A stretch of 64,000 nucleotides of DNA from contig NZ_CP110496.1 of NCBI RefSeq assembly GCF_028748785.1, positions 248,001-312,000 on the forward strand, written 5' to 3'. The DNA comes from Candidatus Purcelliella pentastirinorum. Lineage in GTDB: Bacteria > Pseudomonadota > Gammaproteobacteria > Enterobacterales > Enterobacteriaceae. Position 1 is the first letter of the stretch. Every line of letters starts with the position of its first letter. Made by a program: the position numbers and the translations under genes. The notes beneath the pieces were generated by a model. That model had not been told where the DNA came from and made no database searches. It saw nothing but the letters and a program-made list of their open reading frames with translations. Shown piece after piece: positions 45,621 through 55,256 of the stretch.

Positions 45621-46183
45621 AACAATATTTAACATACCTTAAAAGTAAAACTAATCCATAAATAATAAAAAATATTGATATATTTAAATAAATAAAAAAA
45701 TAAAATAATCTACTAATACTAATAAATTATTTAAAAAAATAAAAAATAAAAAAATATTAAATATTAAATTAATAATCTTATTCAATTAATAAAAATTATA
45801 TGAAATCAATAACATAATATCTTGATTTTATCGTTAAAATTGTTAAAATAACAAAATTAAATAATAAAGTTTTATATTTAATAAAATATATATTAACTAT
45901 ATTAATAATCTTTAAACTTAAAAAAGTTATATTTAACAAAATATAAAATTAATATTAAGAAAAAAATTGTCCATATTTATATATAAATTAAACTTTATAT
46001 ATTTTACAAAATTAAATAAATATTAATTTTAAAAACCAAAATATTCTATATATAAAAATATATAATTTTTACTTTAAAAAAACACTACAAAATAATTAAT
46101 AAAAATAAAATAAATATTTTAATAATACATAAAAAAATTTAGCTATATATAAAAATATTGATAAATATACTAAATAATCTATT
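45621..46183. other. Noncoding A/T stretch before tRNA-Ile (site of a lost 16S gene)
   Basis: About 560 bp of nearly pure A/T with no convincing gene. In E. coli the 16S gene of rrnH would lie just before tRNA-Ile. I found no recognisable 16S piece, including no anti-Shine-Dalgarno end. A promoter for the two tRNAs should be here but cannot be picked out. Confidence 0.6.
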
Positions 46184-46257
46184 AGGCTTGTAGCTCAATA
46201 GGTTAGAGCACACCCCTGATAAGGGTGAGGTAAGTGGTTCAAATCCACTCAAGCCTA
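46184..46257 (+). tRNA. ileV: tRNA-Ile (anticodon GAT)
   Basis: The acceptor stem 46184-46190 pairs perfectly with 46250-46256. The anticodon loop is CTGATAA, anticodon GAT, and the D loop and T loop are standard. CCA is not encoded. It is followed after 7 bp by tRNA-Ala, the spacer pair of enterobacterial rRNA operons, although no rRNA gene is present. Confidence 0.97.
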
Positions 46258-46264
46258 ATACAAA

Positions 46265-46337
46265 GGGGCTATAGCTCAGTTGGTAGAGCATCTGCTTTGC
46301 AAGCAGAAGGTCGGGGGTTCGAAACCGCCTAGCTCCA
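46265..46337 (+). tRNA. alaV: tRNA-Ala (anticodon TGC)
   Basis: The acceptor stem 46265-46271 pairs with 46330-46336 with one G-T pair. The anticodon loop TTTGCAA gives TGC. The T stem (46313-46317 with 46325-46329) has a G-G mismatch in its middle pair. CCA is not encoded. Confidence 0.95.
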
Positions 46338-46382: not shown

Positions 46383-46838
46383 TTAACAAAAAATGTCATT
46401 TAAAAATGGATTTTTAGCAGCTCTACGAGCCAATCTATCACATAATTCATTTCCCATATCACCAGTATGACCCTTTACCCATTCCCAATGAATAATATGA
46501 CAATTAATTGCTTTTTCTAACCTAATCCATAAATCTACATTTTTAACAACACTATTATTATAAGTTCTCCAATTCCGTTTTTTCCAATTTAGAATCCATT
46601 CAGTAATACCACTACGTAAATATGTACTATCAGTGTAAATAATAATATTTGATTTAATAGTAAAATATTCAAGTGCAACAATTGCCGCCATAATTTCCAT
46701 ACGATTGTTTGTCGTAAGGAAAAATCCAGCGCTAAAATAAATTTTTTTTAAACCATTTCTTATAAACACTCCATAACCACCAGGACCAGGATTTCCTATA
46801 CAAGATCCATCAATAAATACTATATTTTTCTTTAACAT
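46383..46838 (-). CDS. rnhA: Ribonuclease HI
   Basis: RNase HI degrades the RNA strand of RNA-DNA hybrids. Starting at the ATG at 46838 gives 151 residues (E. coli 155). The catalytic acids are in FIDGSC, NNRMEIMAA, YTDSTY and NELCDRLA, and the basic handle region reads WILNWKKRNWRTY. The frame is open up to 46964, but that extra stretch overlaps dnaQ and has no counterpart. It is divergent from dnaQ with 57 bp between, the E. coli arrangement. Confidence 0.97.
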   Translation of the reverse strand: MLKKNIVFIDGSCIGNPGPGGYGVFIRNGLKKIYFSAGFFLTTNNRMEIMAAIVALEYFTIKSNIIIYTDSTYLRSGITEWILNWKKRNWRTYNNSVVKNVDLWIRLEKAINCHIIHWEWVKGHTGDMGNELCDRLARRAAKNPFLNDIFC

Positions 46839-46895
46839 ATTAATAAATCCTTTAATTTTTGATAAAATAAAAAAAAACAAAATTGAGAAAATAAT

Positions 46896-47585
46896 ATGAG
46901 AAAAATTATACTTGATACTGAAACAACAGGAATAAATCAAATTGGTAAACATTACAGTGGACATAAAATCATAGAAATAGGTGCAGTTGAAATGATAAAC
47001 AGAACACTAACTAATAATAACTTTCATGTTTATTTAAACCCCAATCGATCTATAAGCGAAGAATCATTTAATATACATGGAATATCAAATGAATTTTTAA
47101 AATATAAACCAACTTTTAAAGAAATATTAGATAAATTTATTAAATATATATACGGATCTAAAATAATAATACATAATGCTAAATTTGATATAGAATTTAT
47201 AAATTATGAATTATTTTTATTAAAAAGAAAAGATAAAATTTCAGATTATTGTAAAATAGTAGATAGTTTGATAATAGCAAGAAAAATATTTCCGGGAAAA
47301 AATAATAGTTTAAATTCACTATGTAATTATTACGGGATAAATATAAAAAAAAGAAAAAAACACGGAGCTTTAAAAGACGCTAAAATACTAGCAAATGTAT
47401 ATTTGTATTTAACAAGTAATCAAAAAAAACTATTTAAAAATGAAAAAACAAAAAAAAAAATAATTTTTAATAAAAATACTAAAAATAAAAAAAAAAAATT
47501 AAAAATAATATTTGCAAGTAAAAAAGAATTAGAATTAAATAAAAAATATAAAAATATATTAAATAAAAATTTGTTAATAAAATGA
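46896..47585 (+). CDS. dnaQ: DnaQ, DNA polymerase III epsilon (proofreading) subunit
   Basis: Epsilon is the 3'-5' exonuclease of the replicative polymerase. The DEDDh motifs are ILDTETTGI (Exo I), HNAKFDIEFINYEL (Exo II) and KHGALKDAKILA (Exo III with the catalytic His). It has 229 residues (E. coli 243). After about residue 185 the tail is Lys/Asn-rich, and the alpha-binding segment is not clearly recognisable. It is followed by tRNA-Asp as in E. coli. Confidence 0.95.
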   Translation: MRKIILDTETTGINQIGKHYSGHKIIEIGAVEMINRTLTNNNFHVYLNPNRSISEESFNIHGISNEFLKYKPTFKEILDKFIKYIYGSKIIIHNAKFDIEFINYELFLLKRKDKISDYCKIVDSLIIARKIFPGKNNSLNSLCNYYGINIKKRKKHGALKDAKILANVYLYLTSNQKKLFKNEKTKKKIIFNKNTKNKKKKLKIIFASKKELELNKKYKNILNKNLLIK

Positions 47586-47621: not shown

Positions 47622-47695
47622 GGTGCGGTAGTTCAGTTGGTCAGAACATCGGCCTGTCACGCCGGGGGTCACGGGTTCAAGTCCCGTCCGCACCG
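47622..47695 (+). tRNA. aspV: tRNA-Asp (anticodon GTC)
   Basis: The acceptor stem 47622-47628 pairs fully with 47688-47694, the anticodon loop CTGTCAC gives GTC, and the discriminator is G. Full CCA is not encoded. It follows dnaQ as aspV does in E. coli. Confidence 0.96.
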
Positions 47696-47743
47696 CAAAT
47701 AAAATAAAAAATATAACTTAAAATATTTTATTCTATTAAAAAC

Positions 47744-47804: not shown

Positions 47805-48482
47805 ATGAATAAAAAAATAATAAAAATAATTAATCCAAATTCAAGCAAAAAAATAACAAAAGAAATAGATACTATAGCAAAAAATACAGCAAATTTTAAC
47901 ACGAAAATAATTACAACAAGATACGTAAATGGTATTTCTTCAATAGAAAACTACTATGATGAAGCTATATGTATCCCAAATATATTAAAAGAAATAAAAA
48001 AAGAAAGTAAAAACAAAGAAATAAAAGGCTACATTATAGCATGTTTTGGAGATCCAGGACTATTAGCAGCCCGTGAATTAACTAAATATCCTGTAATAGG
48101 AATTGCAGAAGCTGCAATGCACATAACATCTTTAATATCTACAAAATTTTCAATTTTAACAACATTACCTTATTGTATTCCAATGATACAAAAATTAATA
48201 AATACATATGGATTTAAAAATATTTGTTGTAATATACATTCAATAAACCTATCAGTAAATAAAATAAAAAAACACACAAAAGAATTAATAAAAAAAATAG
48301 AAAAAAAATGTCAAATAATAATAAAAAATGATAACTGTAATTCTATAATATTAGGATGTAGTGCAATGTCACCATTGTCTAACTATTTAACAAAAAAATT
48401 AAATATACCAATAATAGAAGGCATTAGTTCGGCTGTAAAATTAATAGAAACATTAATATCATTAAAACTATTTATAAATTAA
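47805..48482 (+). CDS. hpxA: Allantoin racemase (HpxA)
   Basis: This is a member of the Asp/Glu/hydantoin racemase family that interconverts R- and S-allantoin so that the stereospecific allantoinase can use both. It has 225 residues. The two catalytic cysteines are C80 in IIACFGDPGL and C185 in ILGCSAMSPL, matching the spacing known for Klebsiella HpxA (C79 and C184). INPNSS at the N terminus is the family start. hpxB follows after 36 bp. Such a racemase is needed when allantoin arises partly by non-enzymatic decarboxylation of the uricase products. Base composition equals the neighbours, so there is no sign of recent transfer. Confidence 0.87.
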   Translation: MNKKIIKIINPNSSKKITKEIDTIAKNTANFNTKIITTRYVNGISSIENYYDEAICIPNILKEIKKESKNKEIKGYIIACFGDPGLLAARELTKYPVIGIAEAAMHITSLISTKFSILTTLPYCIPMIQKLINTYGFKNICCNIHSINLSVNKIKKHTKELIKKIEKKCQIIIKNDNCNSIILGCSAMSPLSNYLTKKLNIPIIEGISSAVKLIETLISLKLFIN

Positions 48483-48518
48483 TTTAATAATTAAAATATT
48501 TCTAAAATAAAAAAATAA

Positions 48519-49454
48519 ATGAAAATTAAAAAAAAAAAATATCCTAGAGATTTATTAGGTTACGGAGACAATCCTCCAACAGTATCATGGCCAAATGATG
48601 CAAAAATAGCAATACAATTTGTATTAAACTATGAAGAAGGAGCAGAAAAAAATATATTACATGGCGATAATTCATCTGAAACATTTCTTTCCGATATAAG
48701 CAATTGTAAAAGCTATAAAAATCGCCATATGTCAATAGAATCTTTATATGAATATGGATCTAGAGTAGGTTTTTGGAGAATTCATAATGAATTTAAAAAC
48801 AGAAAAATACCATTAACTATATTTGGAGTGGCAATGGCTTTTATTAGAAATCAAGAAATAACAAAAACAATAATAAAAGAAAAATATGATGTAGTATGTC
48901 ACGGTCTAAAATGGATTAAATATCAAAATATAAATTATAAAAAAGAAAAAGAAGATATTATTAAATCTATTAAAATATTTAAAAAAATTTTTGGTCAAAG
49001 CCCTCAGGGTTGGTACTCTGGTAGAGACAGTCCAAATACTAGAAAAATAATAATAAAACATAGTAATATAATTTATGATAGCGATTATTATGGAGATGAT
49101 TTGCCTTTTTGGATGAATATTTACCTAAAAAATGGTAAAAAAAAGAAACATTTAATTATACCATATTCATTAGAAACAAATGATATGAAATTTATAGCAC
49201 AACCAGGATTTAATACATCTAAACAATTTTACCAATATTTAAAAGATACTTTTGATATATTATACAAAGAAGGAAAAATAAAACCTAAAATGATGTCAAT
49301 AGGAATGCATTGTAGAATAATAGGAAAACCTGGAAGATTTAAAGCGTTAACAAATTTTTTAGATTATATAAATAAATATAAAGATATATGGATATGTACA
49401 AGACAAGAAATTGCTAATCATTGGATCAAATATCATAAAGTTAAATTTAATTAA
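48519..49454 (+). CDS. hpxB: Allantoinase of the PuuE/HpxB type
   Basis: This enzyme hydrolyses S-allantoin to allantoate. It belongs to the polysaccharide-deacetylase fold, metal-independent PuuE class, not to the amidohydrolase allantoinases (AllB). Hallmarks in its 311 residues are YPRDLLGYGDNPPTVSWP, IQFVLNYEEGAEKNILHGD, ESLYEYGSRVGFWRI, GWYSGRDSPNTR and MMSIGMHCRIIGKPGR. These match PuuE of Pseudomonas along the length (about 308 residues). It follows hpxA on the same strand, and its 3' end overlaps that of the convergent amidase gene by 8 bp. The cytosolic location and pathway step are well supported by the family. Confidence 0.93.
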   Translation: MKIKKKKYPRDLLGYGDNPPTVSWPNDAKIAIQFVLNYEEGAEKNILHGDNSSETFLSDISNCKSYKNRHMSIESLYEYGSRVGFWRIHNEFKNRKIPLTIFGVAMAFIRNQEITKTIIKEKYDVVCHGLKWIKYQNINYKKEKEDIIKSIKIFKKIFGQSPQGWYSGRDSPNTRKIIIKHSNIIYDSDYYGDDLPFWMNIYLKNGKKKKHLIIPYSLETNDMKFIAQPGFNTSKQFYQYLKDTFDILYKEGKIKPKMMSIGMHCRIIGKPGRFKALTNFLDYINKYKDIWICTRQEIANHWIKYHKVKFN

Positions 49455-50847
49455 TCAAATTATCATATTTCATAATAAAACCATTTTTTTCTAATAATAA
49501 AGCGGCTTTAAAACATAAATCCTCTCTAAAAGGAGCTGCAATCAATTGAATACCAATAGGCAAATTATCACCTATCTTAATTGGTACAGTTATAACAGGT
49601 AATCCAATAAAAGATATAGGTTGAGTCAATATACCCATATTAGCCCTAATCAATAAATCAGTATTATTAATACGAATAAACTTTTGACCAATTGTAGTAG
49701 CGGAACAAGGAGTGGCTGGGGCTATTAAAACATCAAAATCGTTAAAAATATCATTAACTTTATGTCTGAAATATGTTCTAAAACGTTGAGCTTTAATATA
49801 CCAATTAGCAGGGATAATAGATCCAGCCAATAATCTTTCTCTAGAAAAAGGTTCAAATAATTCTGGATTATCTAATAATTTAGACCAATATAAATTACCA
49901 CCTTCAGCAGCTGTAATAATAAAAGCAGAAGATCTAGCTAATTCCACATCAGATAAATCTATATCATATTTAACACCTAGAGCTTTAGAAACAACATCTA
50001 TTATATTACGTACTTCGTTATTACACCAAGTGTAAAAATAACCAGATAATAAACAAAAACGTATATTATTATCATAACCATTATAATCTAAAAATACTTT
50101 GTTTTTTGATTTAATAGATTGAGATAAATCATTCTTATCAAGACCTTGCAAAACATTATATACATCAACTAAATCACCAACATTTCTAGCAAAATGCCCA
50201 GCATGATCTAAACTATAAGAAAAAGGATACATACCAGCACGAGATAATCTACCAAAAGTTGGTTTTAAACCTAAAACACCACAAAGCGAAGATGGAACAC
50301 GTATAGATCCATTAGTATCTGATCCTAAAGCAAAATGTACCAAACCAGATGCTACAGCAGCTGCAGATCCACCTGATGAACCACCAGCAATACGATTTAA
50401 ATCGCAGGGATTTCTAGTAGGACCATAATAACTATTTTCTGTAGTAAAACCATAAGCATATGCATCCATATTTAGCATACCACTTAACAATGCTCCATTA
50501 TTATTCAATTTGTTAATTAAATATGCATCACATTCAGCTACTGGGTCATTTGCAAATAAAGTAGATCCCACTAAAGTAACATAACCACAAACATCAAATA
50601 AATTTTTTACAGCATAAGGAATACCAGCTAGTTTTGATATTTTTTTTTTAGATATCAAATATTTATCAATTATATTAGCTTCTTTAAGCATACGATTAGA
50701 AGTAATTTCGGTCCAAGCATTAATAACAGGATTATATTTATCTATAGCACTCAAAGTAAACTCAGCTATTTCCATAGCACTTAAATCACCTCTAATTAAC
50801 CGTTTATTTATTTCTGAAATTGTTAAAAAACGAATATCTTCAATCAT
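49447..50847 (-). CDS. hpxY: Amidase of the AtzE/HpxY type
   Basis: This is an amidase-signature enzyme of 466 residues. The Ser-cisSer-Lys triad is K81 (GIPYAVKNLF), about S157 (GGSSGGSAAA) and S181 (GSDTNGSIRVPSS). The D-T-N-G-S form and overall length match AtzE, which deaminates 1-carboxybiuret, and HpxY of the Klebsiella hpxWXYZ cluster. It overlaps the small hpxX gene by 4 bp (ATGA), as AtzG precedes AtzE, so the two products very likely form one complex. In this setting the likely substrate is oxalurate, the product of HpxJ, which resembles carboxybiuret; that is inference. GatA of the tRNA amidotransferase was rejected because the sequence and partner differ. Confidence 0.85.
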   Translation of the reverse strand: MIEDIRFLTISEINKRLIRGDLSAMEIAEFTLSAIDKYNPVINAWTEITSNRMLKEANIIDKYLISKKKISKLAGIPYAVKNLFDVCGYVTLVGSTLFANDPVAECDAYLINKLNNNGALLSGMLNMDAYAYGFTTENSYYGPTRNPCDLNRIAGGSSGGSAAAVASGLVHFALGSDTNGSIRVPSSLCGVLGLKPTFGRLSRAGMYPFSYSLDHAGHFARNVGDLVDVYNVLQGLDKNDLSQSIKSKNKVFLDYNGYDNNIRFCLLSGYFYTWCNNEVRNIIDVVSKALGVKYDIDLSDVELARSSAFIITAAEGGNLYWSKLLDNPELFEPFSRERLLAGSIIPANWYIKAQRFRTYFRHKVNDIFNDFDVLIAPATPCSATTIGQKFIRINNTDLLIRANMGILTQPISFIGLPVITVPIKIGDNLPIGIQLIAAPFREDLCFKAALLLEKNGFIMKYDNLIN

Positions 50848-51026
50848 GCATTATATACTCCTGATATTCCAATATCACTAGATAAAGAATATAAAATTAA
50901 TGGTTGTGTTATATCAAATATATAAACAAAATTTAATAATAAATCTTCATATCTTTTTTCATCTAAGGATATGTTAAAAATTTTAATAAAATTTTTAACA
51001 TAATCTTCACAATTATTTTTTTTCAT
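50844..51026 (-). CDS. hpxX: HpxX, small AtzG-like partner of the amidase
   Basis: This is a 60-residue protein of the AtzG/DUF4089 kind, recognised by its size, its place directly upstream of an AtzE-like amidase, helical spacing (YVKNFIKIFNISLDEKRYEDLL) read in short parts as NFIKIFNISL and RYEDLLLNF, and the closing SGVYNA, like the PAxVYxP end of the family. A strong AGAGGT ribosome site lies 7-12 bases before the ATG. AtzG completes or stabilises AtzE, so HpxX probably does so for HpxY. Identification is by pattern and context, since a protein this short gives little else. Confidence 0.7.
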   Translation of the reverse strand: MKKNNCEDYVKNFIKIFNISLDEKRYEDLLLNFVYIFDITQPLILYSLSSDIGISGVYNA

Positions 51027-51318
51027 TTGTAAACCTCTAAATATAAAAATAATAATTTTAAAAAAAACAAGATTAAAACCAATAAATTATATTATACATA
51101 TCAAAAATAAAAAAATTAATAAAATTATTTTATTATATGAAATAAATAATTGTAAAATAATAATTTTACGATAAAAATACATATATCAAAAACAAAAAAT
51201 CATATATAAAAAAATATAATTATATATAATAATTTATTTAATAAAAAATAAATAAAAATAAGAAAATAAAGAATAAAATTAAAATAAAAATAAAAAATAT
51301 ATTATAAGGAAATAATAA
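51027..51318. promoter_or_regulatory. Divergent control region of hpxXY and hpxJK
   Basis: This 292-bp A/T-rich gap lies between the divergent hpxX and hpxJ starts, so promoters for both should be here. A 7-bp inverted repeat with a 4-base gap is at 51152-51158 and 51163-51169. The hpxX ribosome site is at 51033-51038 (minus) and the hpxJ one at 51306-51310 (AAGGA). No hpxR-like regulator gene is adjacent. I cannot assign -35 or -10 boxes with confidence. Confidence 0.4.
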
Positions 51319-52533
51319 ATGAATAAATTTGAACAAATAACTCCGCCTGAAAGGCTACTAATGGGTCCTGGGCCTATAAATATAGACCCAAGAATATTAC
51401 ACACTATGTCAAATAAATTAATTGGACAATATGATCCAATGATGACTAATTATATGAATGAAGTCATGCAATTATATCGTATAATTTTTAATACAAAAAA
51501 CTTAAATACTCTATTAATAGATGGAACATCAAGAGCAGGAATAGAAGCAATATTTATATCTATGATTAAACCCGGAGATAAAGTATTAATACCAATATTC
51601 GGTAGATTCGGACAATTATTATATGAAATATCAAAAAGATGTAAAGCCAATGTCCATACAATAGAAGTACCATGGGGTGAAATATTCAAACCAGATCAAA
51701 TAGAATATTCAATTAAAAAAATAAAACCTAAATTTTTACTTACAGTACATGGAGATACTTCAACTACAATGTTACAACCATTAGAAGAAATAGGATTAAT
51801 CTGTCAAAAATACAAAGTAATATTTTATACAGATGCTACAGCTTCATGCGGAGGAAATTATTTAAACACAGATGATTGGAAAATAGATGCAGTATCAGCA
51901 GGTATGCAAAAATGTTTAGGTGGACCATCAGGAACATCTCCTATAACAATTAATGATAAAACAATAGAAATCATGCAACAAAGACAACGTGTAGAATTTG
52001 GAAAGAATATAGACGATAAAAAAATTATTTTTTCAAATTATTTCGATATAAATATGATAATAGATTATTGGAGTGAAAAACGTCTGAATCATCATACAGA
52101 AGCAACAACAGCATTATATGCAGCACACGAATGTGCAAGATTAATCATTAAAGAAGGGATACATAATAGAATATTACGTCATAAACTACACGGAGATGCA
52201 CTATTATATGGAATAAAAAATATGGGATTGAAAATTTTCGGTAATATAAAATATAAAATGAATAATATATTAGGAATAATAATACCAAAAAAAATAAATG
52301 GAGAACAAGTAAGAAAACTTATGTTAGAAGATTTTGGTATAGAAATAGGAACATCCTTTGGACCCTTAAAAGGAAAAATTTGGAGAATTGGTACTATGGG
52401 ATATAATTCTCGTAAAGATTGTGTATTAAGAACATTATCGGCATTAGAATCAATACTTAATAAACTAGGATTTAAAACCATTCAGGGCAAAGCATTACAA
52501 GCAACATGGGATTTTTATAACATAAACGTATAA
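51319..52533 (+). CDS. hpxJ: (S)-Ureidoglycine aminotransferase (HpxJ/PucG type)
   Basis: This is a class V, PLP-dependent aminotransferase that moves the amino group of ureidoglycine to a 2-oxo acid, giving oxalurate and an amino acid. In the 404 residues, MGPGPINIDP opens the fold, LLIDGTSRAGIEA binds the cofactor phosphate, FYTDATASCGG holds the PLP-stacking Asp, and the Schiff-base Lys is K198 in AGMQKCLGGPSGTSP. RIGTMGYN near the C terminus is the carboxylate-binding Arg region. Alanine- or serine-glyoxylate aminotransferases are close relatives, but the setting between amidase and allantoate hydrolase genes decides the role. hpxK follows after 24 bp. Confidence 0.88.
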   Translation: MNKFEQITPPERLLMGPGPINIDPRILHTMSNKLIGQYDPMMTNYMNEVMQLYRIIFNTKNLNTLLIDGTSRAGIEAIFISMIKPGDKVLIPIFGRFGQLLYEISKRCKANVHTIEVPWGEIFKPDQIEYSIKKIKPKFLLTVHGDTSTTMLQPLEEIGLICQKYKVIFYTDATASCGGNYLNTDDWKIDAVSAGMQKCLGGPSGTSPITINDKTIEIMQQRQRVEFGKNIDDKKIIFSNYFDINMIIDYWSEKRLNHHTEATTALYAAHECARLIIKEGIHNRILRHKLHGDALLYGIKNMGLKIFGNIKYKMNNILGIIIPKKINGEQVRKLMLEDFGIEIGTSFGPLKGKIWRIGTMGYNSRKDCVLRTLSALESILNKLGFKTIQGKALQATWDFYNINV

Positions 52534-52557
52534 TAATAAATTAGAGATATTGTTAAT

Positions 52558-53820
52558 ATGTACTATCCTAAAATAAAAAATAATGAATCAAAGAAATATG
52601 CTACACGTATATTAAATAGAATAGAAAAATTATCAAAAATAAGTGAAAATAAAAATGATATAACACGCCTTTATTTATCAATAGAACATGTAAAAACAAA
52701 TAAAATTGTAGAAAAATGGATGAAATCGGCTGGAATGAAAACATGGCAAGATCAAGTAGGCAATATATACGGCAGATATGAAGCATCTACAAAAAAACAA
52801 CCAGCAATTCTATTAGGTTCACATTTAGACACAGTACCTAATGCAGGTAAATATGATGGGATTTTAGGTGTATTAACTTCAATAGAAATTATAAATCATT
52901 TAAATAAAAAAAAAATACACCTAAAAAAAGCAATAGAAATTGTCGGATTTGCAGATGAAGAAGGAACACGTTTTGGTATAACATTATTAGGAAGTAAAGC
53001 ATTAACAAATAAATGGAAAAAAAAATGGTTAAACTATAAAGATAAAAATAAAATTACAATTGCATATGCAATGGAAAATATAGGATTAAATACAAATAAA
53101 ATATATTTAGCAAAAAGAAAAATCAAAGATATAAAAGCATATATTGAATTACATATAGAACAAGGACCATATCTATATAAAAATAATTCAAGTATGGGTG
53201 TAGTAAGTGCAATAAATGGAGCAAAAAGAATTAATTGCACATTTACCGGTGAATCAGGCCATGCTGGTACTGTCCCAATATGTATGAGAAAAGATCCACT
53301 CATAGCTACATCAGAATGGATATTATTTATAGAGAATCAATTATTAAAATCCAAAACAAAAATAGTAGCAACTATTGGTAAAATAAATTGTTACCCAGGA
53401 GCAACAAATGTAATACCGAAAAAAATAAAACTAACACTGGATATAAGAGGACCAAAAAATAATGAACTAAATAAAACGATATCAACCATATTAAAAAAAG
53501 CACAAGAAATTTCTAAAAAAAGAAGCATAATATTTAATTCAAAAAAATATTATTCTACAAAACCTATTCAATGTGATAAAAAAATCAAAAATATAATAAA
53601 AAAAATAATTACCAACATACAAGGAAATTGTCCATCACTAACAAGTGGTGCTGGACATGATGCTATTTCTATGGCAAAAAAATGGCCTATAGGAATGATA
53701 TTTATTAAATGTATAAAAGGAATTAGTCATTCACCCAAAGAAAAAGTATTAAAAAAAGATATAATAAAAACAATTAAAGCTTATATGGAAATAATTTATA
53801 ATTTAACAGAAATAATTTAA
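52558..53820 (+). CDS. hpxK: Allantoate amidohydrolase (HpxK)
   Basis: This is an M20-family dinuclear metal hydrolase that converts allantoate to S-ureidoglycine, CO2 and ammonia. Metal ligands are in GSHLDTVPNAGKYDG, ADEEGTRF, ELHIEQGP and GAGHDA. The dimerisation lid domain sits in the middle. It has 420 residues (E. coli AllC 411). The close relatives N-carbamoyl-L-amino-acid hydrolase and beta-ureidopropionase share all these motifs, so specificity rests on the neighbours HpxA, HpxB and HpxJ. It ends 29 bp before the convergent end of dnaB. Confidence 0.87.
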   Translation: MYYPKIKNNESKKYATRILNRIEKLSKISENKNDITRLYLSIEHVKTNKIVEKWMKSAGMKTWQDQVGNIYGRYEASTKKQPAILLGSHLDTVPNAGKYDGILGVLTSIEIINHLNKKKIHLKKAIEIVGFADEEGTRFGITLLGSKALTNKWKKKWLNYKDKNKITIAYAMENIGLNTNKIYLAKRKIKDIKAYIELHIEQGPYLYKNNSSMGVVSAINGAKRINCTFTGESGHAGTVPICMRKDPLIATSEWILFIENQLLKSKTKIVATIGKINCYPGATNVIPKKIKLTLDIRGPKNNELNKTISTILKKAQEISKKRSIIFNSKKYYSTKPIQCDKKIKNIIKKIITNIQGNCPSLTSGAGHDAISMAKKWPIGMIFIKCIKGISHSPKEKVLKKDIIKTIKAYMEIIYNLTEII

Positions 53821-53825
53821 AATTT

Positions 53826-53868
53826 AAAAAAAAATAATTATGAAAATAATTAATTATTTTCATAATTA
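53826..53868 (-). terminator. Intrinsic terminator of dnaB, perfect 34-bp palindrome
   Basis: Positions 53835-53868 are a perfect 34-bp palindrome that covers the last codons and stop of dnaB. On the minus strand it is followed by nine T (complement of 53826-53834), the form of an intrinsic terminator. Read in the plus direction it has no T-run, so it would serve hpxK less well. The stem is long enough to compensate for its A-T content. Confidence 0.75.
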
Positions 53869-55256
53869 AAACTAGTATAATTATCAAACCTAGACCAATT
53901 ACCATTAAAAATCAAACGAACAGTTCCAATAGGACCATTTCTTTGTTTTCCTATAATAATTTCTGCAACACCCTTTAAATCACTATGCTCATTATATAAT
54001 TCATCTCTATAAATAAACATTATCAAATCTGCATCTTGCTCAATAGAACCAGATTCACGTAAATCAGAATTAACAGGTCTTTTATCTACTCTTTGCTCTA
54101 AAGAACGATTTAATTGTGAAAGCGCCATAATTGGTACCTTCAACTCCTTTGCTAACGATTTTAATGACCTAGATATTTCACCTATCTCAACATTTCTATT
54201 ATCTGAAATATAAGGAACACGCATTAATTGTAAATAATCTATCATAATTAAACTCAAACCATTATTTTCACGATATACACGTCTAGCTCTTGAACTCATT
54301 TCGATAGGAGTTAAACTGGAAGAATCATCAATATATATATTTTTGCGATCTAATAAAACTTTTACAGTACTAGAGATCCTTAACCAATCCTCATCACTTA
54401 ATTTACCAGCACGTATTTTAGATTGATCTACTCTAGATAATGAAGATAACATACGAATCATAATCTGTTCAGAAGACATTTCTAAACTAAATATTAAAAT
54501 AGGTTTATCATAAATCATAGAAACATTTTCACATATATTCATTGCTAAAGTTGTTTTTCCCATTGATGGTCTAGCAGCGACAATAATTAAATCTGAAGGT
54601 TGTAAACCAGCGGTTTTTTTATTAATATCTATATAACCAGTATTTATACCAGTAATATCTCCATTAGGGGTCTTAAATAATCTTTCTATATTTGATATAG
54701 TTATATCAAGTATATGTTCTATACGCTTTGGACCAAACGACTTATTAAGTCTTTCTCTAGAAATATTCATTATACTAGATTCTGCAAAATCTATTAAATC
54801 TTCACTCTTCTTTCCATTTAAAAAATAACCAGCATCAACAATTTTATTTGCAACTGAAATAATATTTCTAACAATAGATCTTTCACGAACAATAGATGCA
54901 TAAGTTGAAATATTAGCGCTACTTGGAACATTTTTAGATAATTCAGCTAAATAAGCGAATCCACCAACATTATCTATGTTACCATTCTGTTCTAAAGATT
55001 CTGAAAGAGTTATCAAATCTATAGGATTACCATTATCAAATAAATACTGCATAGTAGTAAATATTACACGATGTGCACTACTAAAAAAATCATCAACAAC
55101 CAATAACTCAGAAACAATATCCCATTTATCATTATCTAACATTAAGCCTCCCAAAATTGATTGTTCAGCTTCTAAAGAATAGGGTGGAGCTCTGAATTTT
55201 GAAATTAGAGATTTTTTATTTTTAATTGATTTATTAATTAATAAATTATCATTCAT
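53850..55256 (-). CDS. dnaB: DnaB replicative helicase
   Basis: DnaB is the hexameric 5'-3' helicase at the fork. It has 468 residues (E. coli 471), with an N-terminal domain (PPYSLEAEQSILGGLML) for primase contact and a RecA-like motor domain with Walker A ARPSMGKTTLAMNI, Walker B LIMIDYLQLM and the motif EIGEISRSLKSLAKEL. The arginine finger region is near KQRNGPIGTVRL. No intein is present. It is convergent with hpxK and stands alone on the minus strand; rluC lies about 100 bp upstream. Confidence 0.98.
   Translation of the reverse strand: MNDNLLINKSIKNKKSLISKFRAPPYSLEAEQSILGGLMLDNDKWDIVSELLVVDDFFSSAHRVIFTTMQYLFDNGNPIDLITLSESLEQNGNIDNVGGFAYLAELSKNVPSSANISTYASIVRERSIVRNIISVANKIVDAGYFLNGKKSEDLIDFAESSIMNISRERLNKSFGPKRIEHILDITISNIERLFKTPNGDITGINTGYIDINKKTAGLQPSDLIIVAARPSMGKTTLAMNICENVSMIYDKPILIFSLEMSSEQIMIRMLSSLSRVDQSKIRAGKLSDEDWLRISSTVKVLLDRKNIYIDDSSSLTPIEMSSRARRVYRENNGLSLIMIDYLQLMRVPYISDNRNVEIGEISRSLKSLAKELKVPIMALSQLNRSLEQRVDKRPVNSDLRESGSIEQDADLIMFIYRDELYNEHSDLKGVAEIIIGKQRNGPIGTVRLIFNGNWSRFDNYTSFNYENN

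Follow-up and report, generated by a model that had tools for sequence, protein, structure and literature searches.

The described systems closest to the one reported here are the hpx cluster of Klebsiella oxytoca and the all pathway of Escherichia coli, by which allantoin is degraded too, with oxamate as the end product of one branch (PMC11326118, excerpt). In other Hemiptera, symbiont enzymes are likewise described as helping the insect to reuse the nitrogen of its purine waste (PMC8781418, excerpt). Candidatus Purcelliella, an obligate symbiont of cixiid planthoppers, is described as supplying B vitamins and cysteine and as supporting its partner symbionts metabolically (PMC12505427, PMC12691624, and PMC10333215, excerpts). 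We analysed a stretch of 64,000 nt (hereafter the window) of a Candidatus Purcelliella pentastirinorum genome of 483,447 bp in one contig, and found in it an hpx block of six open reading frames (ORFs; 47805..53820) that contain no internal stops and are bounded by tRNA-Asp and dnaB. We consider it likely that this block descends vertically from the enterobacterial hpx cluster, of which it is a remnant, that selection has kept it in Purcelliella, and that it would form an allantoin-to-oxamate segment fed from outside. Judged from its sequence, the block is real and conserved and looks functional, an obligate endosymbiont having kept part of a known pathway; what is new is modest, namely where the segment is kept and where the pathway stops, and the arrangement itself is ordinary. 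The features of the block and its borders are as follows.

47622..47696, plus strand: tRNA-Asp (gtc), left border; found near the hpx cluster in Buttiauxella and Mangrovibacter too
47805..48482, plus strand: hpxA, predicted allantoin racemase of the Asp/Glu racemase family, 225 aa (PF01177, 3qvj)
48519..49454, plus strand: hpxB, predicted PuuE-type allantoinase, 311 aa (TIGR03212, 3cl6)
49447..50847, minus strand: hpxY, AtzE-family amidase, predicted oxalurate amidohydrolase, 466 aa (NF006631, 6c62)
50844..51026, minus strand: hpxX, predicted small partner of HpxY, 60 aa, with an ATGA overlap with hpxY (NF033624, below cut-off)
51027..51318, no strand: divergent intergenic region between hpxX and hpxJ, 292 bp; the same gap in K. 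oxytoca holds hpxW, an RpiR regulator, and an ATP-binding cassette (ABC) transporter
51319..52533, plus strand: hpxJ, predicted ureidoglycine aminotransferase, 404 aa (3nnk)
52558..53820, plus strand: hpxK, predicted allantoate amidohydrolase, 420 aa (NF006775)
53850..55256, minus strand: dnaB, right border (gene call in the window)

A previous sequence-only reading of the window had proposed six intact genes for ureide breakdown between tRNA-Asp and dnaB in a reduced symbiont genome, and both the stop-free frames and the family and structure matches uphold it, with HpxX below its cut-off. The proteins were named through searches against Pfam models, NCBIfam models, and PDB sequences, and a column was called near-invariant when at least 98% identical among the aligned relatives (n = 53 for HpxB, 78 for HpxY, 88 for HpxJ, 81 for HpxK, and 28 for HpxX). 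HpxB scored above the cut-off of the PuuE model (TIGR03212: 447.7 vs. 424.6 bits), matched the PuuE allantoinase 3cl6 at 350 bits, and kept 122 of its 137 near-invariant residues. HpxJ reached no NCBIfam cut-off and takes its name from the ureidoglycine-glyoxylate aminotransferase 3nnk (642 bits over residues 2-401; Bacillus PucG 3isl: 427 bits); it is 66-71% identical to the enterobacterial and pseudomonad relatives listed and retains 176 of 189 near-invariant residues, and its invariant K198 is likely the pyridoxal phosphate lysine. HpxY exceeded the AtzE-family cut-off (NF006631: 653 vs. 461 bits), matched the biuret hydrolase 6c62 at 419 bits, and kept 135 of 138 near-invariant residues including K81, S157, and S181, which we take to be the likely Ser-Ser-Lys triad. 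Its identity as GatA, for which it scored 291 bits, was rejected in view of the AtzE-family score. HpxK was above the cut-off of one allantoate amidohydrolase equivalog model (NF006775: 483 vs. 479 bits) and slightly below that of another (NF006773: 564 vs. 584 bits), with 114 of 121 near-invariant residues kept, among them H89, D100, E135, H199, and H391, presumably the M20 metal ligands. HpxA matched no NCBIfam model, and its naming rests on PF01177 (146 bits) and on matches to 3qvj (188 bits, Cys80 and Cys185 aligned; deposited as a putative hydantoin racemase, which we take to be an HpxA) and to the allantoin racemase 5lfd (83 bits). Five of its eight near-invariant columns are kept, and these come from a poor alignment; its cysteines rest on the 3qvj alignment instead. 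HpxX had no match in Pfam, kept five of seven near-invariant residues, and fits by its length, position, and overlap with hpxY.

We compared the block with that of a second Purcelliella genome (G001, hpx locus L006), the sole other genome compared within the genus, and with the best 80 of at least 561 confirmed HpxJ loci, two of which (L018 and L086) belong to one metagenome bin; flanks extended up to 10 kb, and genes absent from a locus may lie beyond them. Eight other reduced genomes were included, which had an hpxJ match at E 1e-100 and measured at most 1.2 Mb: Ishikawaella capsulata (G058), three Candidatus Pantoea edessiphila, Pantoea sp. SoEX, Pantoea sp. Aalb, G095 (1,150,626 bp), and G124 (708,439 bp). 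Since they were chosen for having hpxJ, the frequency of cluster loss cannot be read from them. The order and orientation seen in Purcelliella (hpxA+ hpxB+ hpxY- hpxJ+ hpxK+) were identical to those of 40 of the best 80 loci, K. oxytoca (L016) included, and the remaining loci held hpxB, hpxY, hpxJ, and hpxK (7), hpxY, hpxJ, and hpxK (23), hpxJ and hpxK (3), or hpxJ alone (7). All five genes stood in the same order in seven of the eight other reduced genomes, the eighth, G124, being without hpxA in the 19.5 kb fetched (L093). The earlier proposals that genes scattered in Klebsiella were condensed here, and that the arrangement may be undescribed, therefore fall: K. oxytoca and 39 more of these loci carry one cluster, and a new gene arrangement is ruled out because this order is the commonest among them.

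The chromosomal site is shared as well. The cluster lies within ~2-3 kb of dnaQ and tRNA-Asp in four Buttiauxella loci and one Mangrovibacter locus; dnaQ was in the flank of 6 of the best 80 loci and of 7 of the 8 other reduced genomes, and tRNA-Asp was called in five of six free-living loci scanned and in one of the eight reduced ones. dnaB was the right neighbour in both Purcelliella genomes and, within the flanks, in none of the 88 other loci. Given the same order and the same site in relatives, the most fitting interpretation is that the block was inherited as a cluster and occupies an old site, rather than having been newly assembled. Recent horizontal gain was rejected in view of the chromosomal neighbours shared with some relatives. 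In a midpoint-rooted tree of four proteins (55 tips), both Purcelliella stood beside G124 (support 0.999), inside an eight-tip cluster (0.972; one inner node 0.425) that also held Ishikawaella, the three P. edessiphila, and SoEX. Pantoea sp. Aalb and G095 fell outside this cluster, so that the reduced genomes together are not one clade, and the branches are very long and AT-rich, which makes long-branch attraction possible. As a separate observation, the hpx block of the three P. edessiphila and of SoEX (L092, L094, L095, and L096) sits no more than about 10 kb from a contig end, the contigs measuring 69-71 kb; either a plasmid or an assembly break that recurs could account for this.

By comparison with K. 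oxytoca, Purcelliella has lost only what sits there between hpxX and hpxJ, namely a gamma-glutamyltranspeptidase-family protein (hpxW), the RpiR regulator, and the four-gene ABC transporter, of which no trace was found beside hpxJ. Searches with tblastn for these genes gave a best match in the window of E 0.018 (hpxW, inside another gene) and none in L006, and the HpxW family (PF01019, oxamate amidohydrolase) was absent from both Purcelliella genomes. The same searches found hpxW in 64 of the best 80 loci and the regulator in 70; for the ABC transporter, the ATPase was matched in 60, and its binding protein as well as each of its permeases in 54. The stretches from the other reduced genomes share the regulator and binding-protein losses (both gone in 8/8, as is each permease; the ATPase had one distant match of 27%), whereas hpxW is kept in all eight. 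In the course of genome reduction, all ten reduced genomes examined have lost the regulator and the transporter, both Purcelliella have lost hpxW, and hpxA is gone from G001 and from the fetched stretch of G124. With hpxW lost, oxamate would become an excreted end product.

Profile searches of both Purcelliella genomes, with matches sought at E 1, found neither 5-hydroxyisourate (HIU) hydrolase (PF00576) nor uricase (PF01014) in either genome, and no HpxO-like enzyme (FAD_binding_3, PF01494) over the cut-off; each genome had one FAD_binding_3 match below it, which in the window's genome is dihydrolipoyl dehydrogenase. Since none of these enzymes was found in the two genomes, allantoin must come from outside, and it is with allantoin that the block begins. 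On the same grounds we reject a uric-acid start within the symbiont, OHCU decarboxylase and a PuuD-type oxidase lying outside the search. The sequence-only reading had proposed recycling of host uric acid or allantoin, of which the allantoin start stands and a urate start inside the symbiont does not; of the genome-wide check it called for, the part covered here (uricase, an HpxO-like enzyme, HpxW, and, as transporters, NCS1 and NCS2 permeases) found none over the cut-off in either genome. Glutamine synthetase and glutamate dehydrogenase were likewise not found in either genome, so that ammonia would not be fixable by the usual enzymes in the Purcelliella cell, and a search of the window's genome for class I/II aminotransferases returned a bioF-like gene, glyA, and wecE only. 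These results do not support the suggested conversion of the nitrogen into amino acids inside the symbiont; that HpxJ would put one nitrogen onto an amino acid is, from what is known of its family, upheld. HpxJ may be the sole transaminase in the genome making an ordinary amino acid, class III, class IV, and other class V enzymes lying outside the genome-wide search. On a side note, bioB and the bioF-like gene are adjacent in the window's genome and are followed by two further frames (L001 405-3960; G000:C1 ~414-418 kb), with bioB over and the bioF-like gene under the cut-off of its model. A complete biotin pathway is kept in the Purcelliella of Oliarus polyphemus and not in that of O. filicicola (PMC12505427, excerpt), and the window's genome may, judging by this gene pair, come from the O. 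polyphemus symbiont.

What is known of the protein families, together with annotation, suggests the following route. Purcelliella would take up allantoin that stems either from host urate, through a putative host uricase, or from ingested sap, and HpxB would convert it to allantoate, with HpxA interconverting the two mirror forms of allantoin. HpxK would then give ureidoglycine, NH3, and CO2, and HpxJ would transfer an amino group from ureidoglycine to a 2-oxo acid, yielding oxalurate and an amino acid. By annotation and analogy to AtzE, the likely action of HpxYX is to split oxalurate hydrolytically, with oxamate, CO2, and NH3 as products; only with these products would three of the four nitrogens be recovered, two as ammonia and one as an amino acid. 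Both would presumably be delivered to the host; since neither glutamine synthetase nor glutamate dehydrogenase was found in Purcelliella, it is most likely host cells that would capture the ammonia. A review credits the planthopper Nilaparvata lugens with a uricase gene of its own (PMC8781418, excerpt), which we count in favour of this explanation. Beyond the pathway itself, we put forward tentatively, and at less than even chance, that the cixiid symbiont may do the lower half of purine-waste breakdown, with allantoin from host or food yielding ammonia, oxamate, and a single amino acid that would serve the host and its partner symbionts. Somewhat unlikely, though the strongest of the alternatives, is a substrate that is mainly dietary, in which case sap allantoin and allantoate would be made usable to the insect and recycling of host waste would be secondary. 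The start of the block at allantoin and the missing urate-step families fit such a diet, as do the other reduced genomes, none of the eight having HIU hydrolase or uricase over the cut-off (a single weak match apiece, in G223 and G095; HpxO-like enzymes were outside that search); tropical legumes, moreover, carry nitrogen as allantoin and allantoate (PMC9464200, excerpt). However, a host uricase would account for the same gene set.

The two Purcelliella genomes also allow selection on the block to be gauged. In G001 the five genes other than hpxA are intact (HpxB: 91%, HpxJ: 96% identical to those of the window), the nearest named HpxJ is that of Candidatus Purcelliella pentastirinorum (96% identical), and the gene already bears the name purine catabolism protein PucG in a public record. 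Between the two genomes the synonymous divergence (dS) of these five genes is 0.17-0.32, and the ratio of nonsynonymous to synonymous divergence (dN/dS) is 0.125 for hpxB, 0.07 for hpxJ, and 0.13 for hpxK, with hpxY and hpxX higher. Of 60 reciprocal pairs, 48 were kept after overlapping shadow frames were dropped, and 43 of these served as controls, a few short ones of which may not be genes. The median dN/dS was 0.13 for the five hpx genes vs. 0.16 for control frames (one frame without synonymous changes excluded), and the median proportion of nonsynonymous differences (pN) was 0.039 vs. 0.036; the five hpx genes are constrained about as much as the other genes of the window. The proposal that the genes are kept by selection is therefore sustained for hpxB, hpxY, hpxX, hpxJ, and hpxK and not for hpxA, which in G001 is a remnant. 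This bears on a second alternative, that the block is a slowly decaying leftover of no present benefit, which we regard as improbable. It could draw on the hpxA remnant, on the departed hpxW, regulator, and transporter, on the looser constraint on hpxY and hpxX, and on the loss of the pathway from many reduced genomes (8 of the 20 listed genomes without an hpxJ match, out of 238, are at most 1.2 Mb). Yet five frames remain intact in both genomes at this dS with dN/dS near that of control frames, their functional positions are kept, and the cluster order is intact in other reduced genomes too, although those were picked for having hpxJ.

Several observations weigh against the reading of an inherited and selected allantoin-to-oxamate segment. 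hpxA has already been lost in the second Purcelliella genome, where a 33-residue match among stops (reverse strand of L006, 5600-6300) is all that remains beside an intact hpxB, and hpxY and hpxX (dN/dS 0.25 and 0.43) are under weaker constraint than hpxJ. No allantoin uptake system was found in either Purcelliella genome among the NCS1 and NCS2 permeases sought. HpxX scored below the cut-off of its model (NF033624: 37.3 vs. 70 bits), though the alignment covers 53 of 55 positions. HpxK fell far below the AllC model (TIGR03176: 267.5 vs. 597.75 bits), and its top structure match was the N-carbamoyl-L-amino acid hydrolase 3n5f (258 bits), ahead of the allantoate amidohydrolase 1z2l (189 bits). 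The products of HpxYX follow from annotation and analogy, and one source names hpxY an oxalurate amidohydrolase in its text and an oxamate carbamoyltransferase in a figure legend (PMC12625717, excerpt). A third alternative, very improbable, is that these enzymes have different substrates, with carbamoyl amino acids or hydantoins for HpxK and HpxB and a transamidase role for HpxYX: the folds are common to such enzymes, and the structures nearest to HpxK and HpxA as well as the GatA match of HpxY would agree with it, but HpxB passes the PuuE cut-off, HpxJ is closest to 3nnk and 66-71% identical to its listed relatives, HpxY scores far higher in the AtzE family, and the genes stay together across the loci compared.

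Outside the block, tRNA-Ile(gat) and tRNA-Ala(tgc) are adjacent beside rnhA (window 46183-46337) in both Purcelliella genomes; in many bacteria this pair occupies the rRNA spacer. The longest rnhA frame (46383-46964) overlaps the start of dnaQ (46896-47585) on the opposite strand, and the real start of rnhA is probably further inside that frame.

A full-text literature search returned no paper that has Purcelliella and allantoin together; the two founding genome papers were not covered by it, and an earlier mention there is possible. Nitrogen, allantoin, uric acid, urate, and recycling receive no mention in the main-text portions of PMC12505427, PMC12691624, and PMC13202766 on Purcelliella and its hosts that were available; likewise, PMC10333215 makes no mention of allantoin, uric acid, or nitrogen recycling, nor PMC10073718 of allantoin, uric acid, nitrogen, or purine. 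The kept allantoin pathway gives Purcelliella a testable nitrogen role. Among known systems, 3nnk and Bacillus PucG 3isl belong to the HpxJ family, and their likeness covers the transaminase step alone. E. coli reaches oxalurate via ureidoglycolate and splits it with AllFGH, whereas Purcelliella would use HpxJ and HpxYX instead. The recycling cases described in Hemiptera, one for the stinkbug Parastrachia and one for Nilaparvata with its yeast-like symbionts, start from urate, whereas in Purcelliella an intracellular bacterium would start from allantoin; a bacterium may here play the part that yeast-like symbionts have in the recycling of uric acid by Nilaparvata (PMC8781418, excerpt).

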